DNA of 25,819 bases from a virus, in IMG/VR virus record IMGVR_UViG_3300009703_001851, positions 1 to 25,819 of that record. The stretch is one strand, 5' to 3'. Under the pieces are notes generated by a model. It searched no databases and was not told the origin of the DNA. It saw only the letters and a program-made list of their open reading frames with translations. Position numbers and translations under genes: made by a program. This document shows positions 4,212-16,278 of the stretch, in pieces; position 1 is the stretch's first letter; the number at the start of each line of letters is the position of its first letter.

Positions 4212-5271
4212 CGCAGCATTAAAAACCATTACTAAAAAATACGGAAATATATTAGTGAATGGAGCTGATGTATTTGAAGAACTGCAAGACATGCAGGTTA
4301 TTCCTGTAAGTCCATCTCTCGACTACGCTCTTGGTGGTGGCTTTCGAGAGGGAACTTGGATTCAGATGATTGGAGATCCAAAGTCTGGAAAAACAACCAC
4401 AGCTTTACAATTCGCTGCGAACTGTCAGAAAAAAGAGTATGGAGAAAGACCCATATTTTATGTGAATGTAGAAGGCAGGTTAAGCACGAAGAACTTTGAA
4501 GGAGTTCATGGCTTAGATGCTAGTAAGATCACTGTAGTACAGTCTGAAACAGAAACCCTTAGTGCAGAAAAGTATCTAGGTGCTATAGAAAAGATAGTAA
4601 AGGCCCATCCTAACTGTGTAGTCATTATTGATTCAATATCTAGCTTCATAGCACAGAAAGACTTAGACGAAGAAGTAAGAGGCGATTACAGGCCGGGAGT
4701 TCCCAAGATACTGTCTAACTTCTGCAAGAAGATGAGCAGTGTGGTTCCCAAACAAAGAGCTATCATTATCATGATTACACACTTTATTGCTAATACTGGC
4801 GGCATGGGAAAGAAAAAAGTGGCCGATGGTGGCGTAAAGGTTCGCTATCAAGCAGATACGATATTGGAAATTGCTTGGATTCAAGCATGGAAAGAAAAGA
4901 GTGACGGAAGACAAATCGGACAAGCACTTCATTGGAAAGTAGTCACTTCTGCTCTTGGGGGATTTGTAGGAGCCGAAGCTATTGGATGGCTTCGGTATGG
5001 AACAGGTATTGATTACAAGCAAGAACTGTTCGATCAAGCAAACGACTTCGATTTGATTTCCGCAGCCGGAGCTTGGTACACATGCGATTTTTTAGTCGAT
5101 GATCCGAAGCTTATAAAAAAACTTTTGGAGGCCGAAGGAATCGAAAAAGATGATGAAGAAAAAATTACTAAGTTGGTCAAGTTTCAAGGTCAGCAAAGAC
5201 TCAGAGCTTTTCTTGATGAACACGACTTATGGCCTGCTTTACAAAACTCATTGAAGGAAATGTTGTTTTGA
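4204..5271 (+). CDS. recA: RecA-like recombinase
   Basis: Strand-exchange ATPase that forms filaments on ssDNA for recombination and recombination-dependent replication (RecA/UvsX role). The 355 residues contain LDYALGGGFREG (39-50), Walker A GDPKSGKT (57-64), Walker B VVIIDS in the middle, and a C-terminal segment with the RecA pattern RYGTGIDYKQELFD followed by AAGAWYTCDFL. The length matches bacterial RecA, and the GxGID/GAWY pattern is more RecA-like than T4 UvsX-like. The ATG at 4204 is preferred over an upstream in-frame start at 4162 because GGAG lies upstream and it makes an 8-nt overlap (ATGAGTGA) with the preceding gene. The stop is shared with the TTG start of a nuclease-like gene. 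Confidence 0.93.
   Translation: MSDAALKTITKKYGNILVNGADVFEELQDMQVIPVSPSLDYALGGGFREGTWIQMIGDPKSGKTTTALQFAANCQKKEYGERPIFYVNVEGRLSTKNFEGVHGLDASKITVVQSETETLSAEKYLGAIEKIVKAHPNCVVIIDSISSFIAQKDLDEEVRGDYRPGVPKILSNFCKKMSSVVPKQRAIIIMITHFIANTGGMGKKKVADGGVKVRYQADTILEIAWIQAWKEKSDGRQIGQALHWKVVTSALGGFVGAEAIGWLRYGTGIDYKQELFDQANDFDLISAAGAWYTCDFLVDDPKLIKKLLEAEGIEKDDEEKITKLVKFQGQQRLRAFLDEHDLWPALQNSLKEMLF
5254..5258 (+). promoter_or_regulatory. Shine-Dalgarno deciding a TTG start
   Basis: AAGGA lies 9 nt upstream of the TTG at 5268. It supports that TTG over the in-frame ATG at 5229, which would overlap recA by 43 nt. The TTG forms a TTGA stop/start overlap with the recA TGA. Confidence 0.6.
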
Positions 5272-5690
5272 AAGCTATAGGCTTTGATGGCCGAGAAAGA
5301 AATTGGAACCTATCAAAATGCGTAGTTTCAGGAGATCAGACAAGACCTCGAAGCAAATTGCATATTTTAGCAAGAAAATTACTCCGTGAGCAGTTTCCTT
5401 ATGATACAATCCTTGAGGAAGTGCCGCTTGTCGGCTCACATAAGCCATCAAGAAAATCTACTCTGTATGTTGATTTCTTGATACCGTCACATTCTTTGGC
5501 GGTAGAAGTACACGGGCGACAGCATTTTGAATTTGTCGCCCATTTTCATGGCAATAGACAAGGTTTCAGAAAGTCAAAAGCTAGAGATAGAGATAAGGGA
5601 AATTGGCTTTATAACAATGATATACAACTTGTTATTTTGAGTTATTCAGGAACAGAAAATGAATGGCGAGAATCAATTATCAATAGATAG
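5268..5690 (+). CDS. PD-(D/E)XK nuclease-like protein (Vsr/DUF559-like)
   Basis: A 140-aa protein with restriction-endonuclease-like features. E50, then LYVDF (D69), then AVEVHGRQHFEF with E80-V-H82 and Q85-H86 match the E...D...ExX layout of the PD-(D/E)XK fold seen in Vsr and DUF559 proteins. The usual catalytic Lys is replaced by His, as sometimes happens in this superfamily. A conserved-looking RDRDKGNWLYNNDIQL stretch follows. Start: TTG at 5268, coupled to recA as TTGA. The recA neighbour suggests DNA processing during recombination, such as branch or flap cutting. Nuclease activity is inferred from motifs; a different metal-dependent or inactive nuclease fold is possible. Confidence 0.7.
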   Translation: MKAIGFDGRERNWNLSKCVVSGDQTRPRSKLHILARKLLREQFPYDTILEEVPLVGSHKPSRKSTLYVDFLIPSHSLAVEVHGRQHFEFVAHFHGNRQGFRKSKARDRDKGNWLYNNDIQLVILSYSGTENEWRESIINR

Positions 5691-8089: not shown

Positions 8090-9192
8090 AAAGATTGTCT
8101 GGAAAAGAACTTAAGGTTCTTGGTGACAAGATTGCGTTGAATATAGTACCAGTGCTTGCACACTTTGGAATAGAGGTTCAGATATTTGATGACTATGTAA
8201 CATGTCCATGTCCAATACATGGTGGTGATTGCCCCACAGGATGGACAATGACAACAGATGCAGACAATCCTTACTTAGGGATATGGGTCTGTTGGACAGA
8301 ACATTGTGAGCAAGAGATAGATAAGACCACTGGCAAGAAAAAGTATGTAAACAATCCCATAGGTCTTATAAGAGCTTTATTATCTAATAAATACGACAGG
8401 GAAGATATTCCTTTCGCAGATGCCGTTTCATTTGCAATGAAGCTGGTTGAAACTAACTTTGAAGATTTAAATAAAGGCTCTTCCAAAGTAGACTTTACGA
8501 AGAAAAGCCTATCAAACGCTGAAAGAAACTTTAAGAGACGAGAACAAAACAAGAAACTTGGACACCCAAGAAACAAAGTCAGGCAGTCCTTGTTGCGGCC
8601 AGCTAAATACTTTTTGAATAGAGGATACAGCGAGGAAGTTCTTGACGCTTTTGATGTTGGAGTTTCTCGAAATACAAAAGGCGTTATGAGAAAAAGAGTC
8701 ATAGTGCCGGTTTATGACGACGAGGGGGAAGTAATGGTTGGCTATCTTGGAAGATGGCCTTCTGAAGAATACGAAGATTATGAACAACCTAAGTGGAGAT
8801 TCTCCAAAAAGTTTTATTCTGGAGCTTGGCTTTATGGTTATCATATCGCTAAAGGGTATATCGAAGACACAAAGATTGTAGTTTTAGTTGAAGGGCAAGG
8901 GGATGTTTGGCGATTGTGGGAATCTGGAATCAAAAATTCTGTTGGAATGTTTGGTTGCAGTATAACTGATACTCAGCTGAGAATACTTGAAAATTCTACT
9001 GCTGAAAAAATTGCTTTGATATGTGATAACGATAAAGCTGGACAAAAGGCAAGAATATCTATCAGAAAAAAGTGTGAGGGTAAACTTGAAGTAGTGGATA
9101 TAATGATTGAATCAAAGGATATTGGAGAAATGTCCACCATAGAGATAGAACAAAAAATAAAACCTCAGATTGAAGGGTTGTATAATGACTAA
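8086..9192 (+). CDS. dnaG: DnaG-like DNA primase
   Basis: Makes RNA primers at the replication fork. The N-terminal zinc-binding domain is visible as CPCPIHGGDCP (C40, C42, H45, C49) with a second pair C69 and C74 (WVCWTEHC). A linker follows, then an RNA-polymerase/TOPRIM domain: LVEGQGDVWRLWESG with E269 and CDNDKAGQKA with D314 and D316 as metal ligands. At 368 aa it is shorter than bacterial DnaG and lacks a clear helicase-interaction domain. The start is a TTG overlapping the helicase stop, with GGAG upstream; such a start may keep primase below helicase level. The C-terminus overlaps the dNMP kinase by 8 nt. Confidence 0.9.
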   Translation: MKRLSGKELKVLGDKIALNIVPVLAHFGIEVQIFDDYVTCPCPIHGGDCPTGWTMTTDADNPYLGIWVCWTEHCEQEIDKTTGKKKYVNNPIGLIRALLSNKYDREDIPFADAVSFAMKLVETNFEDLNKGSSKVDFTKKSLSNAERNFKRREQNKKLGHPRNKVRQSLLRPAKYFLNRGYSEEVLDAFDVGVSRNTKGVMRKRVIVPVYDDEGEVMVGYLGRWPSEEYEDYEQPKWRFSKKFYSGAWLYGYHIAKGYIEDTKIVVLVEGQGDVWRLWESGIKNSVGMFGCSITDTQLRILENSTAEKIALICDNDKAGQKARISIRKKCEGKLEVVDIMIESKDIGEMSTIEIEQKIKPQIEGLYND

Positions 9193-9946: not shown

Positions 9947-10497
9947 GTATACCTTGGGATGACAGGATGGTCACTCGCGCTCAGAAGAAAGCGAAGAGTC
10001 TTGGAAGAATAAGGAACTCAATACTGAGAGGTGGTGGTAATGCCGCTGGTTACTTAGGAGAGGAAGCTGTAGCATCTTATATTGGAGCAGAAATAACTAG
10101 CTGCAATAAAGGCTCAGATAAATATGACTACGACATCATAGCTAAGGATGGCCGTAGGGTAGAAATAAAAACAAAAAGAAGAACAGTTTATCCACAGGAA
10201 CACTTTGATGTATCCGTCGCTAAAACGAGTGTTCATCAAAGACCTGATTTGTATATTTTTGTAAGTATTGAATTTGCTAGGATGACGATGGAAAACGGAA
10301 GGCGTGCCTATCGTAACATCAAAAGTATTTGCATCTTGGGGCAGGCAGAGCCTGAAGATTTTTTTGCGAGAGCCAAAATTTGGCGAGAAGGCGATATTGA
10401 TAGTAGAAATGGTTTTAAAACACATGTAGATATGTATAACTTGCCTATATCAGAAATAGATCCGTTAGATGATAGTTTGTTACCACAGAAGCAGTAG
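9925..10497 (+). CDS. PD-(D/E)XK nuclease-like protein
   Basis: A 190-aa protein with a small restriction-like nuclease signature: GNAAGYLGEEAV (E47), YDYDII with D70, and GRRVEIKTK with E80-I-K82, the canonical D...ExK catalytic triad. An N-terminal basic helical region (RAQKKAKSLGRIRN) could bind DNA. The start is ATG 9925 with AAGG just upstream; it overlaps the kinase gene by 22 nt. The gene lies between dNMP kinase and a second, larger PD-(D/E)XK nuclease, so both may process replication or recombination intermediates or degrade host DNA. Substrate unknown. Confidence 0.75.
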   Translation: MANNKIISIPWDDRMVTRAQKKAKSLGRIRNSILRGGGNAAGYLGEEAVASYIGAEITSCNKGSDKYDYDIIAKDGRRVEIKTKRRTVYPQEHFDVSVAKTSVHQRPDLYIFVSIEFARMTMENGRRAYRNIKSICILGQAEPEDFFARAKIWREGDIDSRNGFKTHVDMYNLPISEIDPLDDSLLPQKQ

Positions 10498-11485
10498 TCT
10501 TGGAACTTTGGAATTTTGTCAGCAAAAGTATTTTTTGCAGTACAATCTTTCGTTCAAAGATAAAACTAATGCAAAAGCCTTGATGGGTACTATTACTCAT
10601 AAAGTTATGCAAACTCTTGGAGACAAGAAAGTTGCAATGAATAAAGGTTTTGACATCGTAGAAGATGAGGAAACCGGAAGAAACCTGACTCTAGAAGAGT
10701 GCGACGATCTTGAGCTTTTGAATAACATAGCTTTTGATTATTACACAAATGCTTTTCCAGAAGTTAATATTGGAGAAAAAGAAAAGAGGCAATGTCTTCG
10801 TTGGGCAGAGAAGGCAGTAGCATACCAAGACGGATTGCTAGACCCTAGAAATCAAAATGTATTTGCTACCGAGTTGTTTTTTGACATAGAGATAAAAAAG
10901 CCTTGGGCAAAATATAAGTATGAGTTTGAAGACCAGACGATTGAAGGATACCTGTCAATCAAAGGCACTGTAGACCTAATCCTTAAACAGGGAGAAGGCT
11001 ACTATGAGATACTAGATTACAAAACCGGAAAACGGCTAGACTGGGCGACCGGAGAAGAGAAGACTTACGAAAAGCTACAGAAAGACACGCAGCTACTTCT
11101 TTACTACTACGCTCTTAAAAATATGTATCCAGAAAGAGAATTCTCAGTAAGCATATATTACATCAATGCTGGCGGATTGTTTTCAATGGTATTTGACGAA
11201 AGCGATTATGAAAAAGCTGAATCCATACTAAGGAAAAAATTTGAGCAGATAAGAGACATTCAACAGCCTAAACTTCTTTCTAATGAAAACAGACACTGGA
11301 AGTGTCAAAAGCTTTGCAAGTTCAGCGGCGAATATGAAGACTCAGGCAAGAGTATATGTCAACATATAAGAGACGAAGTTAAAGAAAAAGGCGTAGTCAA
11401 AGTCGTTGAAGAGTACGGAAAAATTGAAAAGATCGCCACTTATGGAGATGGCGGCGGAAGATTAGCAGAAGATAATAAAAAATGA
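10469..11485 (+). CDS. RecB/Cas4-type PD-(D/E)XK exonuclease with four-Cys cluster
   Basis: A 338-aa nuclease of the RecB-like family. Motifs in order: N-terminal SSLGTLEFCQQKYFLQY (family start, containing C17), motif II GTVDLI with D169, motif III ILDYKTGK with D183 and K185, then QLLLYYYAL (motif QxxxY). Four cysteines, C17 near the start and C279, C283 and C297 near the end (KCQKLC and ICQH), resemble the one-plus-three arrangement that holds a [4Fe-4S] cluster in Cas4, AddB and Dna2, though the spacing is looser. The likely role is 5' or 3' end resection, supplying ssDNA for RecA. It overlaps the preceding nuclease by 29 nt and ends ATGA with dnaE. Family firm; cluster type inferred. Confidence 0.85.
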   Translation: MIVCYHRSSSLGTLEFCQQKYFLQYNLSFKDKTNAKALMGTITHKVMQTLGDKKVAMNKGFDIVEDEETGRNLTLEECDDLELLNNIAFDYYTNAFPEVNIGEKEKRQCLRWAEKAVAYQDGLLDPRNQNVFATELFFDIEIKKPWAKYKYEFEDQTIEGYLSIKGTVDLILKQGEGYYEILDYKTGKRLDWATGEEKTYEKLQKDTQLLLYYYALKNMYPEREFSVSIYYINAGGLFSMVFDESDYEKAESILRKKFEQIRDIQQPKLLSNENRHWKCQKLCKFSGEYEDSGKSICQHIRDEVKEKGVVKVVEEYGKIEKIATYGDGGGRLAEDNKK

Positions 11486-13395
11486 GTTGGACACCTTTAC
11501 ACTTACATACACACTACAGTCTTTTAGATGGTCTTAGTAAGCCCTCACAGGTCGCTGAGCGATGTTCTAATCTAGGCTATACCTCCTGCGCCTTAACCGA
11601 CCACGGTACTATATCAGGCGCTGTGGCCTTTACACAGGCAATGAAGAAAAAGAATATCAAACCTATTCTTGGGTGTGAGTTTTACCTAAGCCAGCAAGAT
11701 TGCAAAATAAAGTCCGACGAAAATAGAAGCCTGAGTCATTTATGTGTGCTTGCTAAAAACAGAAAAGGTTGGGACAACCTGATCCAAGCAGTCTCTAAAA
11801 GCAATGACGAAGAAAATTACTATTACAAGCCAAGACTAGACCTTGCCGAATTAAACCTTTTTGCAGATGGCAACTTAATATCTTACAGCGGGCATCTTGG
11901 TAGCGACTTAGCAAATGCAATATTCGTAGACCCAAAGTCTGCTTATAACGCAAAAACAGAAGATGAAGCCAAAAGATACATACATCCAGAATGGGTAGAC
12001 CAAGTATTAAAAATTGCAAATAGATACAGGTCTATATTTGGTAAGGAAAACTTCTTCATTGAGATACAAGCTATTGACCAAGATAATTCTCCAGCAGCGA
12101 AGTTAGTAGTTCAAGGTCTACGGTATATAGCTAAAAAGTATAAATTCCAAACTGTAGCTACGGCAGATTCACACTATCCAGAAAAGAAAGACGCAAACGA
12201 TCAATTATTACTGCTTTGCTCTGCATTGAAAACAACCCTGCCTAAGATCAAGAAAAAGCTAAAAGAATCTGGAGAAGCTGCATTTGCTGGTTTTCTAAAG
12301 TCTAATAACTTTCATATTCCATCCCTTGAAGAAATACAAAATGTAAATACTTCACAGGAGATAGAAAACTCAATGCTAATAGCTAGTATGTGCGAAGACT
12401 ACAACATACTAGGCAAACCTATGCTTCCTAAGTTCAAGTGTCCCAAAGACTTTTCAGAAGATCAATATCTAAGACACTTATGCAGAGAAGGTTGGAAAAG
12501 CAGATTAGCACCCATAGGAAAAGTTAACACAGAGCAAAGCAAGCAGGTGTACGCAGACCAAATCAAGAAAGAGCTTGATGTCATTAGCGAAGCAAACCTA
12601 GCTGGCTATTTCTTAATAGTTAGAGATATTGTCAATAGTGTGGTTGATAAGAATCACATCCCCGGTCCGGGAAGAGGTTCTGCCGCTGGATGTTTAGTAT
12701 CATACTTAGTAGGAATAACACAAGTTGATCCAATTGATTATGGATTATTGTTTGAGCGTTTTTATAACGCAGGAAGAAACACTGATGACCATGTGTCTTT
12801 ACCAGACATTGATATAGACGTTCCTGCTAATAAAAGAGACGAGACAATAGATTACATACGCGGCAAGTACGGAAGTGAAAAGGTTGGACAAATGGTGACA
12901 TTTGGAAGACTGCAAGGCCGAGGCGCAATTAAAGAAGTCTTGAGAATGAATGAAGCTTGTGGTTATGACCAAATGAATGAAATAACAAAAAGTCTTCCAC
13001 ATGAACATGAAGTATCCGATCAATTGGCAGAGATGGACAATCCATCTGTGATTAAATGGACTCTGATGAATCAGCCGGAGACACTTCGTGGCTACTGTAG
13101 ATTAAATGATGATGGTGTTCTTGAAGGCGACTATGCTAAATTTTTCGATCAGGCTATGCGAATAGAAGGGACTTTCAAATCGCAGGGCAAACACGCTGCT
13201 GGTGTAGTTATATCCTCTCATGATCTTAACGATGTTTGCCCAATGGTAAGGGACAAGAGAGGTAGCGAGAAGATAGCTGGAATGGAAATGAACGACTTGG
13301 AGTCTATGGGGCATGTAAAATTTGATATTCTTGGTATTTCACTAATGGATAAAATGATGGGAATTAGAGACCAACTAAAGGAAAGACATGGATAG
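11482..13395 (+). CDS. dnaE: DNA polymerase III alpha, N-terminal half of split DnaE
   Basis: N-terminal 637 residues of a bacterial-type replicative polymerase. The PHP domain has metal-binding residues in place: H7 and H9 (HLH), D16 (LLDG), H41 (TDHG), E66 (GCE) and ADSH. The palm follows: GPGRGSAAG (395-403), LPDIDIDV with D442, D444 and D446, GKHAAGVV, and KFDILG with D615, the equivalent of E. coli D555. The ORF stops 22 residues later (ending KERHG). It therefore holds all three catalytic aspartates but lacks the fingers, HhH and OB regions, which a separate gene at 14270 supplies. The break falls in the loop after the last catalytic strand/helix, with no intein. The start is coupled to the exonuclease gene as ATGA. 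Confidence 0.93.
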   Translation: MSWTPLHLHTHYSLLDGLSKPSQVAERCSNLGYTSCALTDHGTISGAVAFTQAMKKKNIKPILGCEFYLSQQDCKIKSDENRSLSHLCVLAKNRKGWDNLIQAVSKSNDEENYYYKPRLDLAELNLFADGNLISYSGHLGSDLANAIFVDPKSAYNAKTEDEAKRYIHPEWVDQVLKIANRYRSIFGKENFFIEIQAIDQDNSPAAKLVVQGLRYIAKKYKFQTVATADSHYPEKKDANDQLLLLCSALKTTLPKIKKKLKESGEAAFAGFLKSNNFHIPSLEEIQNVNTSQEIENSMLIASMCEDYNILGKPMLPKFKCPKDFSEDQYLRHLCREGWKSRLAPIGKVNTEQSKQVYADQIKKELDVISEANLAGYFLIVRDIVNSVVDKNHIPGPGRGSAAGCLVSYLVGITQVDPIDYGLLFERFYNAGRNTDDHVSLPDIDIDVPANKRDETIDYIRGKYGSEKVGQMVTFGRLQGRGAIKEVLRMNEACGYDQMNEITKSLPHEHEVSDQLAEMDNPSVIKWTLMNQPETLRGYCRLNDDGVLEGDYAKFFDQAMRIEGTFKSQGKHAAGVVISSHDLNDVCPMVRDKRGSEKIAGMEMNDLESMGHVKFDILGISLMDKMMGIRDQLKERHG

Positions 13396-13609
13396 GAAGA
13401 CTAGCTACAGACAAAACGTAAAGGACAAAATTAATTCAGGGAGATACGTTGATTACAAAAGCTTATCAATTTGTAGAATCAATGACTTCTATCCATTAAT
13501 GCATGGAAAAATAAGATACCAAGTACACTCTCATTTTTTCAGCAAGCTATATGAAAATATTGACGAAGCGCTGGACAAATTTTTTGAGATTAGAAGGAAA
13601 ATAAAATGA
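13388..13609 (+). CDS. Small basic protein between dnaE halves (73 aa)
   Basis: A 73-residue basic protein encoded between the N-terminal dnaE half and the exonuclease. AAAGGA lies upstream and an 8-nt overlap (ATGGATAG) joins it to the dnaE stop; its own stop overlaps the next start as ATGA. The C-terminal part, RYQVHSHFFSKL then YENIDEALDKFFEI, loosely resembles the last strand and helix of AP2-type DNA-binding folds (strand, then D/E-EAxxxF). That match is weak. Because it is fixed inside the polymerase locus, it could bridge the two polymerase halves or bind DNA. Function unknown. Confidence 0.55.
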   Translation: MDRKTSYRQNVKDKINSGRYVDYKSLSICRINDFYPLMHGKIRYQVHSHFFSKLYENIDEALDKFFEIRRKIK

Positions 13610-14289
13610 ATTACAAGGACATTATTGTTTTTGACTTTGAAACAGGCTCCAGAAACCCAGAAAAAACACAGCCTGTACAAATTGCGGCTGTCGCTATACA
13701 CGGTCGTAAGTTGACTGTTCAACCAGACGGATATTTTGAAAGTTTAATGCGGCCTATATTAGACGACGAAGAAGCAATCAAAATGGGTCTAGATCCTATC
13801 GAAGACGAAGCATTAGCCGTAAATGGCAAGACAAGAGAAGAACTCGCAAAAGCTCCTTCAGAACGAACTGTATGGAAAAAGTTCACAAACTTTGTAAATA
13901 AATACAACTGGAAAGGAACTCCTTACTTCGCTCCGATTGCGGCGGGTTATAATATTGTTGGTTTTGACATGCCTATTGTTCAAAGAATGTGTGAGCTATA
14001 TGGGCCAATCGACAAGAAAACAGGGAAGCAGACTCTCTTTAATAAAATTCACAGAATTGATGTGATGGATAATGTCTGGATGTGGATGGAAAATAATGCA
14101 GATGTTAAATCATTGAGTATGGATTCCATGCGAGACTTATTTGGCATGAGCAAAGAAAACGCTCATGATGCTTTGCAAGACGTTAAGGATACAGCCAACT
14201 TAATGATTGGTTTTATGAAACTATATAGAAGAGTTGCGCCGAAGATTAAATTTGAAAAGGCTTTTGCTGATGGAAACCTCCACATTTGA
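13606..14289 (+). CDS. DnaQ-like 3'-5' exonuclease (DEDDh)
   Basis: Proofreading-type 3'-5' exonuclease of the DnaQ/epsilon superfamily, 227 aa. Motif I is VFDFETG with D10 and E12, motif II lies in GYNIVGFDMPIV (N and D), and motif III is NAHDALQDVKD with the H and D of the DEDDh type. It has a strong AGAAGGAAA Shine-Dalgarno and ATGA coupling to the 73-aa ORF. Its last 20 nt overlap the C-terminal dnaE piece. Encoded between the two polymerase halves, it is very likely the proofreading subunit of this polymerase, like epsilon, which binds the PHP domain in E. coli. It lacks a long C-terminal tail carrying an obvious clamp- or alpha-binding motif. Confidence 0.88.
   Translation: MNYKDIIVFDFETGSRNPEKTQPVQIAAVAIHGRKLTVQPDGYFESLMRPILDDEEAIKMGLDPIEDEALAVNGKTREELAKAPSERTVWKKFTNFVNKYNWKGTPYFAPIAAGYNIVGFDMPIVQRMCELYGPIDKKTGKQTLFNKIHRIDVMDNVWMWMENNADVKSLSMDSMRDLFGMSKENAHDALQDVKDTANLMIGFMKLYRRVAPKIKFEKAFADGNLHI
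14256..14260 (+). promoter_or_regulatory. Shine-Dalgarno for the C-terminal dnaE gene
   Basis: AAAGG lies 9 nt upstream of the ATG at 14270, inside the exonuclease coding sequence. It supports independent initiation of the second polymerase half at 14270 rather than at the in-frame ATG 14234. Confidence 0.55.
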
Positions 14290-15862
14290 ACCTCTTGAAC
14301 TTGGATTTGAAGATGAAAAAGCTTGGGATCTAATATGCTCAGGAAAAACAAAAGGTGTTTTTCAACTAGAAAGCAACTTAGGTAAGTCTTGGGCTAAAAG
14401 AGTTCAGCCAAAAAACATTGAAGAACTATCTGCTCTAATATCAATTATTAGACCGGGAACATTGAAGGCTATTGTAGATGGCAAATCAATGACCCAACAC
14501 TATGTTGATAGAAAGAATGGGGTGCAAGAAATAACTTATCTTCACCCATCCCTTGAGCCAATCCTTAAGAGGACTCAAGGAGTTCTTGTGTATCAAGAAC
14601 AATCTATGCAGATTGCACAACAGTTAGCAGGGTTTAACCTTCAAGAAGCCGATAATCTACGCAAAGCTATCGGTAAGAAAAAAGCAGACCTTATGGCTAA
14701 AGTCAAAGAGGACTTTCTAAAGGGAGCCTCCGAACAAGGCACTATCACGACAGAAGAAGCCGAAGAAATCTTTAGCTGGATTGAGAAGTCTAGTCGTTAT
14801 GCCTTTAATAAATCCCACGCTGTATCTTACGCAATATGTGCATATTGGAGCGCTTATGCTAAGGCTCACTTTCCGCTAGAGTTTTATTGTAACTACCTCA
14901 TTCATTCTTCTGGCAAGCCAGATCCGCAACAAGAAGTTAGAGACCTAGTTAACGATGCAAAGAATTTAGAGATATATGTAAATCCTCCATCAATAAAAGC
15001 TCTGAATACCCAAACAGACATAATCGAAGATCGCATACATTTTGGTTTAATAGACATAAAATCTGTTGGAGCAAAGCAGGTTGATAAGTTTAGAGATGCT
15101 ATAGTGTATTTAGAACAAACTTTAGGCAAGCAGCTATGCGAAGTTAATTGGTACGAGTTTCTTGTTTTAGCTTCACAGAAGATCAATTCAAGAATGTTAA
15201 CAGCTTTGATATCAGTAGGGTTCTTTGCGGATCTTCCAGAGAGTAGACAGCAAATGTTAGACGAGTTTGATACTTGGTCAAACATAACTAAGAAAGAAGC
15301 TGAGTGGGCAGAAGACAACTTTGAAAACTATGACAACCTAGTAGATCTACTAAGAGTCATGTCTCCTGTCAAAAAGGACGGAGGAGCAACCTTTAACTCA
15401 AAGCGTTCTCAGATTATCTCCGATTTAGTAATCCAATGTGAAAATCCATCTTATTCGCTAAAAGATGATCCTGAATGGGTTATTAGAACCGAAGAAAATT
15501 ACTTAGGAATAGGACTTACATACTCAAGAGTAGAAGCTTATGACACAAGCTTGGCAAATACTACTATCAAAGAGTTTATTAATGGTAAAAGGGGCAATGT
15601 CAAAATGGCCGTTACCATCAATGAAGTTAAGAGATACACCGCTAAAAAAGGTAAAGCGATTGGTCTTGAGATGGCATTTTTATGCGTTGAGGATACGACA
15701 GGAACTATGGATAGTGTTACTGTTTTTAGTGACCAATGGAACTCATACAAAAATATTTTATATGAAGGAAATAACGTAATATTGATTGGACAAGATTCAA
15801 AAAAGAAAAGATACCAATTAGATGACGGTTTCATAGTTAATGAAGTTATTGAGTTGCGTTGA
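14270..15862 (+). CDS. dnaE: DNA polymerase III alpha, C-terminal half of split DnaE
   Basis: The 530-residue C-terminal part of a DnaE polymerase. It begins with LELGFEDEKAWDL, which aligns with the segment directly after the last catalytic-Asp region of normal DnaE. Then follow GVFQLES (29-35), ISIIRPGTLK, YQEQSMQIAQQLAGF, ADNLRKAIGKKK and YAFNKSHAVSYA (177-188), all fingers-domain hallmarks. HhH-type IDIKSVGAKQ and a C-terminal OB fold complete it. It ends after the OB domain, so a tau-binding domain is probably absent, and I see no clear QxxLF-type clamp motif. The two halves sum to 1167 aa, close to E. coli DnaE (1160). The gene has its own Shine-Dalgarno and overlaps the exonuclease by 20 nt. 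Confidence 0.92.
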   Translation: METSTFEPLELGFEDEKAWDLICSGKTKGVFQLESNLGKSWAKRVQPKNIEELSALISIIRPGTLKAIVDGKSMTQHYVDRKNGVQEITYLHPSLEPILKRTQGVLVYQEQSMQIAQQLAGFNLQEADNLRKAIGKKKADLMAKVKEDFLKGASEQGTITTEEAEEIFSWIEKSSRYAFNKSHAVSYAICAYWSAYAKAHFPLEFYCNYLIHSSGKPDPQQEVRDLVNDAKNLEIYVNPPSIKALNTQTDIIEDRIHFGLIDIKSVGAKQVDKFRDAIVYLEQTLGKQLCEVNWYEFLVLASQKINSRMLTALISVGFFADLPESRQQMLDEFDTWSNITKKEAEWAEDNFENYDNLVDLLRVMSPVKKDGGATFNSKRSQIISDLVIQCENPSYSLKDDPEWVIRTEENYLGIGLTYSRVEAYDTSLANTTIKEFINGKRGNVKMAVTINEVKRYTAKKGKAIGLEMAFLCVEDTTGTMDSVTVFSDQWNSYKNILYEGNNVILIGQDSKKKRYQLDDGFIVNEVIELR

Positions 15863-15921: not shown

Positions 15922-16278
15922 ATGAATACTATTTCAAATTATTGTAGATTTATTGGAAGACTAGTAGAAAACCCAAAAGTTGTTGAGTTTGAAAATACGA
16001 ATCTTTGCACTTTTACTTTAGCTATCAATGAGTATAGAAAAGAAAAGAACGGAGAAAAAAAGAAAACTGTCAACTATTTTGATTTTGAAGCTTGGGATTC
16101 TGGCGGAGAAACAATTAGTCGATATTGCTCTAAAGGAGATATAATTGATTTAGTTGCCTCTGCAAGGAATAACTCTTGGATTGACAAAAGTGGAAAAAAA
16201 AGATACTCAACAAAATTTAGAGTCAAAGAGTTCAAACTCTTTAATCAAACAAAAGAGCGACAAACAGTCGGGCAATAA
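15922..16278 (+). CDS. ssb: Single-stranded DNA-binding protein
   Basis: Bacterial-type OB-fold SSB of 118 aa that coats ssDNA at the fork. The N-terminal SNYCRFIGRLVENPKVV, then CTFTLAINEYR, YFDFEAWDSGGETISRYC and KGDIIDLVASARNNSW follow the SSB strand order, and YSTKFRVKEFKLF forms the last strand. The C-terminus (QTKERQTVGQ) lacks the acidic DDDIPF-type tail that most SSBs use to recruit partners. It may therefore not dock host repair proteins or may use another contact. It is the first gene after the promoter at 15859. Its 3' end is overlapped in another frame by the sigma factor gene. Confidence 0.9.
   Translation: MNTISNYCRFIGRLVENPKVVEFENTNLCTFTLAINEYRKEKNGEKKKTVNYFDFEAWDSGGETISRYCSKGDIIDLVASARNNSWIDKSGKKRYSTKFRVKEFKLFNQTKERQTVGQ

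Follow-up and report, generated by a model that had tools for sequence, protein, structure and literature searches.

An apparent two-gene DnaE polymerase with an exonuclease gene between its halves in a large group of uncultured phages

The window, by which we mean the whole 25.8-kb metagenomic fragment analysed here, carries a replication operon that runs from a UvsX-like recombinase gene through genes for a DnaB-like helicase, a primase and a PD-(D/E)XK nuclease to the N-terminal half of a DnaE polymerase (N), a 73-aa ORF, an exonuclease, the C-terminal half of DnaE (C) and SSB. Directly after the UvsX-like gene, at 5229-5690, lies a 153-aa ORF resembling homing endonucleases (PHROG 559, 9084). 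Re-checking confirmed the ORFs and coordinates first given, and the locus reads as follows:

10469..11485, + strand: PD-(D/E)XK nuclease, the upstream neighbour, whose stop overlaps the start of N (Pfam)
11482..13395, + strand: DnaE N half (alphaN), 637 aa, with PHP, palm, thumb and all catalytic Asp (Pfam, E. coli DnaE alignment, AlphaFold, Foldseek)
13388..13609, + strand: 73-aa ORF, conserved in part of the clade (homologues in relatives; dN/dS)
13393..14269, + strand: break, the DNA separating N's last sense codon from C's first codon; it lies in the linker of palm and fingers (alignment)
13606..14289, + strand: DEDDh exonuclease, probable proofreading subunit (RNase_T, PHROG 192, catalytic residues, constant position)
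14270..15862, + strand: DnaE C half (alphaC), 530 aa, with fingers, HhH and OB (Pfam, PDB sequence matches, AlphaFold, Foldseek)
15922..16278, + strand: SSB, the downstream neighbour (Pfam)

N and the 73-aa ORF overlap by 8 nt, the 73-aa ORF and the exonuclease gene share an ATGA, and the exonuclease and C genes overlap by 20 nt. The original prediction gave the 73-aa ORF and the exonuclease gene their own overlapping starts with Shine-Dalgarno sequences: the overlaps stand, as does good pairing for the 73-aa ORF and the exonuclease (-5.6 and -5.7 kcal/mol), and pairing is moderate for C (-3.2 kcal/mol) and poor for N (-1.0 kcal/mol). Because the genes overlap, translational coupling is suggested.

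The two flanking genes divide the domains of DnaE between them. N matches PHP (E=2.4e-38) and the entire length of the DNA_pol3_alpha profile (E=2.7e-69), and C matches DNA_pol3_finger (E=4.6e-49) and HHH_6 (E=1e-5) in Pfam, so that the PHP, finger and HhH domains follow in DnaE order across the two halves, as Foldseek also finds. The OB part of C has no Pfam match; here the AlphaFold model shows the expected strands at its end and aligns at full length with solved DnaE. The palm with its three catalytic Asp and the GPGRGS block is present in N: D442, D444 and D615 correspond to E. coli D401, D403 and D555 and are invariant in 51 members. The equivalents of E. coli D401, D403, K553 and D555 are all in N and the FNKSH block is in C; across these 51 diverse members, the catalytic residues of N and the finger blocks of C are invariant or nearly so. 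When the halves are joined and aligned with E. coli DnaE, the junction falls between residues 577 and 578. The domain map of E. coli alpha places this point immediately beyond the palm, within the linker that leads to the fingers. The conserved core has lost no residue at the break, while C stops at about E. coli residue 1074 and the tau-binding C-terminal domain is missing. Pfam, the alignment and Foldseek therefore bear out the domain assignment made in the original prediction, including its view that nothing had been lost between the halves. In one large sub-clade (L055-L111 and relatives) N has about 530 aa rather than 637, with about 100 residues of the PHP region missing or unrecognised.

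Each half was modelled alone with AlphaFold from 51-sequence alignments. The models have a pLDDT of 92.4 and pTM of 0.90 for N and a pLDDT of 91.1 and pTM of 0.83 for C, and the best solved matches of both in the PDB are DnaE polymerases (Foldseek). From the confidence of these single-half models, we would expect either half to fold by itself into the corresponding part of DnaE.

The searches of viral contigs relied mostly on C, a query neutral between split and fused genes, with N used in one scan; each scan gave its best 80 matches, and a sister group without the split, branching from the stem, may have escaped them. Among the matches listed, the first searches returned 169 viral loci with both halves, all split, and in addition the cultured phage phiT1, which is also split. 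Re-fetches and a query with a more distant sequence added 84 further split loci, and one unsplit locus on a contig of a Lokiarchaeota bin. The original prediction had proposed seeking the same gene order in phage genomes: with duplicate DNA removed, N, exonuclease, C is the order in all 206 distinct viral loci among the matches listed, with no fused gene in any of them. Identity of C to that of the window reaches down to about 40% among these relatives.

In a tree of C, a long branch (SH-aLRT 100) sets 42 split representatives, as a monophyletic clade, apart from 46 DnaE of cells and phages. Since these split loci stand apart in this tree, a single break that preceded the radiation of the clade is most likely. 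Cellular or reference loci are unsplit in 79 of 81 cases; of the other two, one is cut off and one is a virus-like contig in a Lokiarchaeota bin. Among contigs L184, L350 and L351 of a Lokiarchaeota MAG, two carry the N-exonuclease-C array; these two are phage contamination or else belong to viruses whose host range differs.

Rossellomorea phage phiT1 (gp20/gp18, PV767480), which is cultured, has a DnaE cut at the same palm/fingers boundary, its halves annotated as two DNA polymerase III alpha genes. Unlike the clade, it has a 49-aa ORF and no exonuclease between them. In the tree of C it groups with unsplit phage DnaE (support 93), so its split is probably independent and this boundary was probably cut twice.

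Where the synonymous distance to relatives is measurable, dN/dS lies at 0.017-0.039 (N), 0.025-0.081 (C), 0.013-0.020 (exonuclease) and 0.051-0.077 (73-aa ORF); purifying selection acts strongly on both halves. For N and C, pairwise distances correlate with a Pearson coefficient of 0.93, compared with 0.54-0.79 for either half and the PD-(D/E)XK nuclease or SSB; as the pairs are not independent, this is a weak sign of co-inheritance. The larger relatives searched have one finger domain and one N half each, the exception being two Ace Lake records in which N is interrupted. The original claim that the two genes are two parts of one polymerase agrees with the single ancient origin, the strong selection and the presence of one of each per record: judged by their sequences, N and C are one DnaE in two genes.

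Tailed phages that form a very large uncultured group carry the split. A phage collection yielded no cultured members (C about 31% identical at best; exonuclease without a match). A PHROG search of the structural genes of a 136-kb relative returned only a terminase and a weak tail-fibre match, which points to a tailed phage of no clear family; the same relative has a ribonucleotide reductase. Searches with PF07068 (T4-like capsid) and PF02916 (T4-type clamp) gave no match, nor did their controls. The split DnaE may serve as a genomic marker for this group, although annotation will tend to call its two halves fragments of a broken gene.

The exonuclease matches RNase_T (E=2e-15) and PHROG 192. 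Its D10, E12, D121, H187 and D192 are invariant in the relatives aligned and supply the DEDDh catalytic residues within an RNase_T fold; its solved relatives are distant ones only. From fold class, catalytic residues and position, it is probably the proofreading subunit. In 26 of the 206 loci it begins no more than 30 nt after N. Elsewhere the halves are separated by short ORFs or by genes for HNH endonucleases, a TylF-type methyltransferase, uracil-DNA glycosylase, a formyltransferase or sugar enzymes. In two records, L052 and L144, N is parted from the exonuclease and C genes by six ORFs (about 6 kb). The exonuclease adjoins C even where N sits that far off.

The 73-aa protein is encoded in 112 of 170 first-set loci and in none of L270-L349. 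The earlier suggestion that it holds the halves together is thus not borne out as a general role: because many loci are without this ORF, the protein may at most be a lineage-specific helper.

The window has no homing endonuclease at the break. HNH genes lie between the exonuclease and C in 21 of 206 loci and may be later arrivals. Small HNH (endonuclease VII-like) genes, many of which begin with residues (METSTYK...) that mimic the start of C, make this gap a hot spot (L056, L057, L062, L063, L102, L104, L106, L108 and others). TylF-type methyltransferase genes are found exactly at the exonuclease/C junction in L010, L029, L036 and L042, and methyltransferase genes that look FkbM-like by eye lie exactly at the PD-(D/E)XK/N junction in L003 and L005.

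We consider it likely that the locus codes for the replicase core of a large tailed phage, that N and C, made separately, come together non-covalently as one active polymerase that works with the exonuclease, and that this arrangement goes back to a single ancestral break. The DnaE gene would have been broken once in the clade ancestor, in the palm/fingers linker, and the N protein (PHP, palm, thumb, catalytic Asp) would associate non-covalently with the C protein (fingers, HhH, OB) to give the active enzyme. The DEDDh exonuclease would join as an epsilon-like proofreader: in E. coli, epsilon binds the PHP domain of alpha, and the PHP domain here lies wholly in N. Overlapping genes on one message could help the subunits to assemble during synthesis. 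As to the origin of the break, homing-endonuclease invasion as in T4-type split genes would be the likeliest route, and it is plausible because HNH genes occur between exonuclease and C in relatives and because the T4-type cases set a precedent (PMC2988022).

A stricter form of this explanation makes the exonuclease a structural bridge without which the halves fall apart. The exonuclease gene lies between the halves in every one of the 206 loci and keeps its place beside C at a distance of 6 kb from N; against this, such support is one of gene position only, and phiT1 has the same break with no exonuclease in it, so that we regard an essential bridge as possible and rather doubtful. It is unlikely that the three proteins (alphaN, exonuclease, alphaC) form an obligate core, bridged by the exonuclease, for which the host sliding clamp is dispensable, an architecture that would be undescribed for the C family.

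The halves might also have ceased to be one polymerase, with one of them kept for another task (such as a PHP nuclease or DNA binding) and replication left to a host or unseen enzyme. Two observations could be read in this way. No bacterial clamp gene was found in 20 records of unstated completeness, and at the usual place after HhH, where E. coli has its internal clamp-binding motif, four clade members lack any counterpart of the QADMF region, whereas the same alignment shows the motif in gut phage and cellular DnaE; such a motif is no strict requirement for membership of the DnaE-type C family. We hold this explanation to be improbable, given the near invariance of the catalytic residues and finger blocks, the purifying selection on both halves and the operon shared with helicase, primase and SSB. 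Moreover, no other polymerase family was found in relatives: PolA and PolB were not detected in 17 relative records of 93-205 kb and unstated completeness, in which controls were positive. Because these sampled large relatives show no PolA or PolB, the split DnaE is probably the replicase of the clade, although the records are fragmentary and another polymerase could be missed in them.

The original prediction had named an intron or frameshift joining the halves, a full-length polymerase gene elsewhere and an assembly error as findings that would speak against it. A full-length DnaE copy was absent from the larger relative records searched, whose completeness is unstated; the record of the window is itself a fragment. 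Covalent joining of the halves might be imagined, whether through RNA splicing, through ribosome bypass or through an intein at the break that escaped recognition. Its model would be cyanobacterial DnaE, whose parts a split intein rejoins, and split inteins are present in N of some relatives. Searches of Rfam, however, returned no group I or II intron match between the halves, and the DNA that separates them consists of intact, selected genes whose content and length vary, up to about 6 kb, with unrelated genes in many relatives, so that an intron or frameshift was rejected. An intein was likewise rejected by alignment, in which ordinary DnaE sequence runs up to the break from either side; the prediction that neither half contains an intein there, and that the break is unlike the cyanobacterial one, stands. 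Covalent joining is therefore very improbable. We give next to no credence to an assembly or sequencing error as the source of the gene order, even though the window is a metagenomic fragment, because 206 distinct viral loci from many metagenomes share the order and the break, down to about 40% identity, and none is fused.

Some relatives have a second break within the palm, at GPGRG|S (four Ace Lake loci, L018-L021, and L068, L162 and L279). Read by eye, its ends have motifs of split-intein halves: ...GPGRG|CFLPDTRV... is followed by ...VHN|SAAG... in the next ORF. The polymerase of these phages would come from three genes. The cut inside the catalytic core thus has intein-like ends, whereas none were seen at the palm/fingers boundary. 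Between the split-intein-like ends, L068 and L279 carry an endonuclease-like ORF. C of L018 and L019 (about 8500-8880) has an in-frame mini-intein-like insert, FNK|S...TSN|SHAV, which lies within a few residues of where the cyanobacterial DnaE intein sits. L019, in contrast to L018, has a further palm interruption at 4557-5400, just before VSLPDIDIDV, where the frame is left broken; this may be an intron or a homing insert, or else the gene is damaged.

To our knowledge, DnaE-type replicases have been known as single chains or as chains rejoined by an intein. The single-chain DnaE or Pol III alpha of E. coli, Thermus, M. tuberculosis and phages MTATph1 and GBK1 has the same domains, order, catalytic residues and predicted folds as the enzyme described here, which differs in its two genes, in having no clamp-binding motif recognised at the usual place and in its missing tau-binding domain. 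Cyanobacterial DnaE is likewise encoded in two genes, but its break lies later and is rejoined by a split intein (PMC3919608), which is absent from the break in the clade.

Splits of other kinds are on record. In group 2.2 jumbo phages, a C-family polymerase (a minimal split Pol III alpha) comes as two proteins for which reunion in a single enzyme was predicted (Iyer et al. 2021, PMC7824862). That enzyme is a minimal core only, lacking PHP, cut between its NTP-binding and Mg/template-binding parts, encoded by distant genes and found beside a family B polymerase (PMC7824862). By this description the clade is set apart by a full PHP-to-OB DnaE, the palm/fingers cut and neighbouring genes, as well as by the exonuclease between the halves and the lack of PolB in 17 clade records. 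In T4-type phages, an essential replication gene is in two parts without splicing, as with gp43A/43B of Aeromonas phages 25 and 44RR and nrdA of Aeh1, and gp43A and gp43B of phage 25 co-purify and are active (PMC2988022). These are a family B polymerase or a ribonucleotide reductase with a homing endonuclease or spacer at the break, where our locus has a replication exonuclease. According to PMC4104785 (citing Kelman 1999), the Methanobacteriales encode a replicative polymerase, PolB3, in two genes with no intein; this is an archaeal family B enzyme, whose split is attributed to faulty intein loss. Split polymerases without inteins are therefore already known, among them a different split Pol III alpha of phages; within the open-licence literature, we found no published description of the N-exonuclease-C layout.

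If this reading holds, the apparently sole DNA polymerase of a large phage lineage would consist of two chains cut at the palm/fingers boundary. With the same cut present in an unrelated cultured phage, the palm/fingers contact could be put to the test as a site of natural assembly, and the halves could be parts for a polymerase switched by mixing.

The marine jumbo phage group PGC_A, in which about half of the members have the PF07733 marker (PMC9123017), may overlap with the split-DnaE clade. Two further phages have DnaE genes annotated in pieces. Alicyclobacillus phage MMB025 (L355, 2132-6494) has two polymerase genes with an endonuclease gene between them, possibly a DnaE gene that was invaded recently, here in a cultured phage, or else an intron. 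DnaE of Staphylococcus phage MVC_VPHSA1 (L183, 3168-6270) is annotated as five separate polymerase pieces, which could be sequencing frameshifts.
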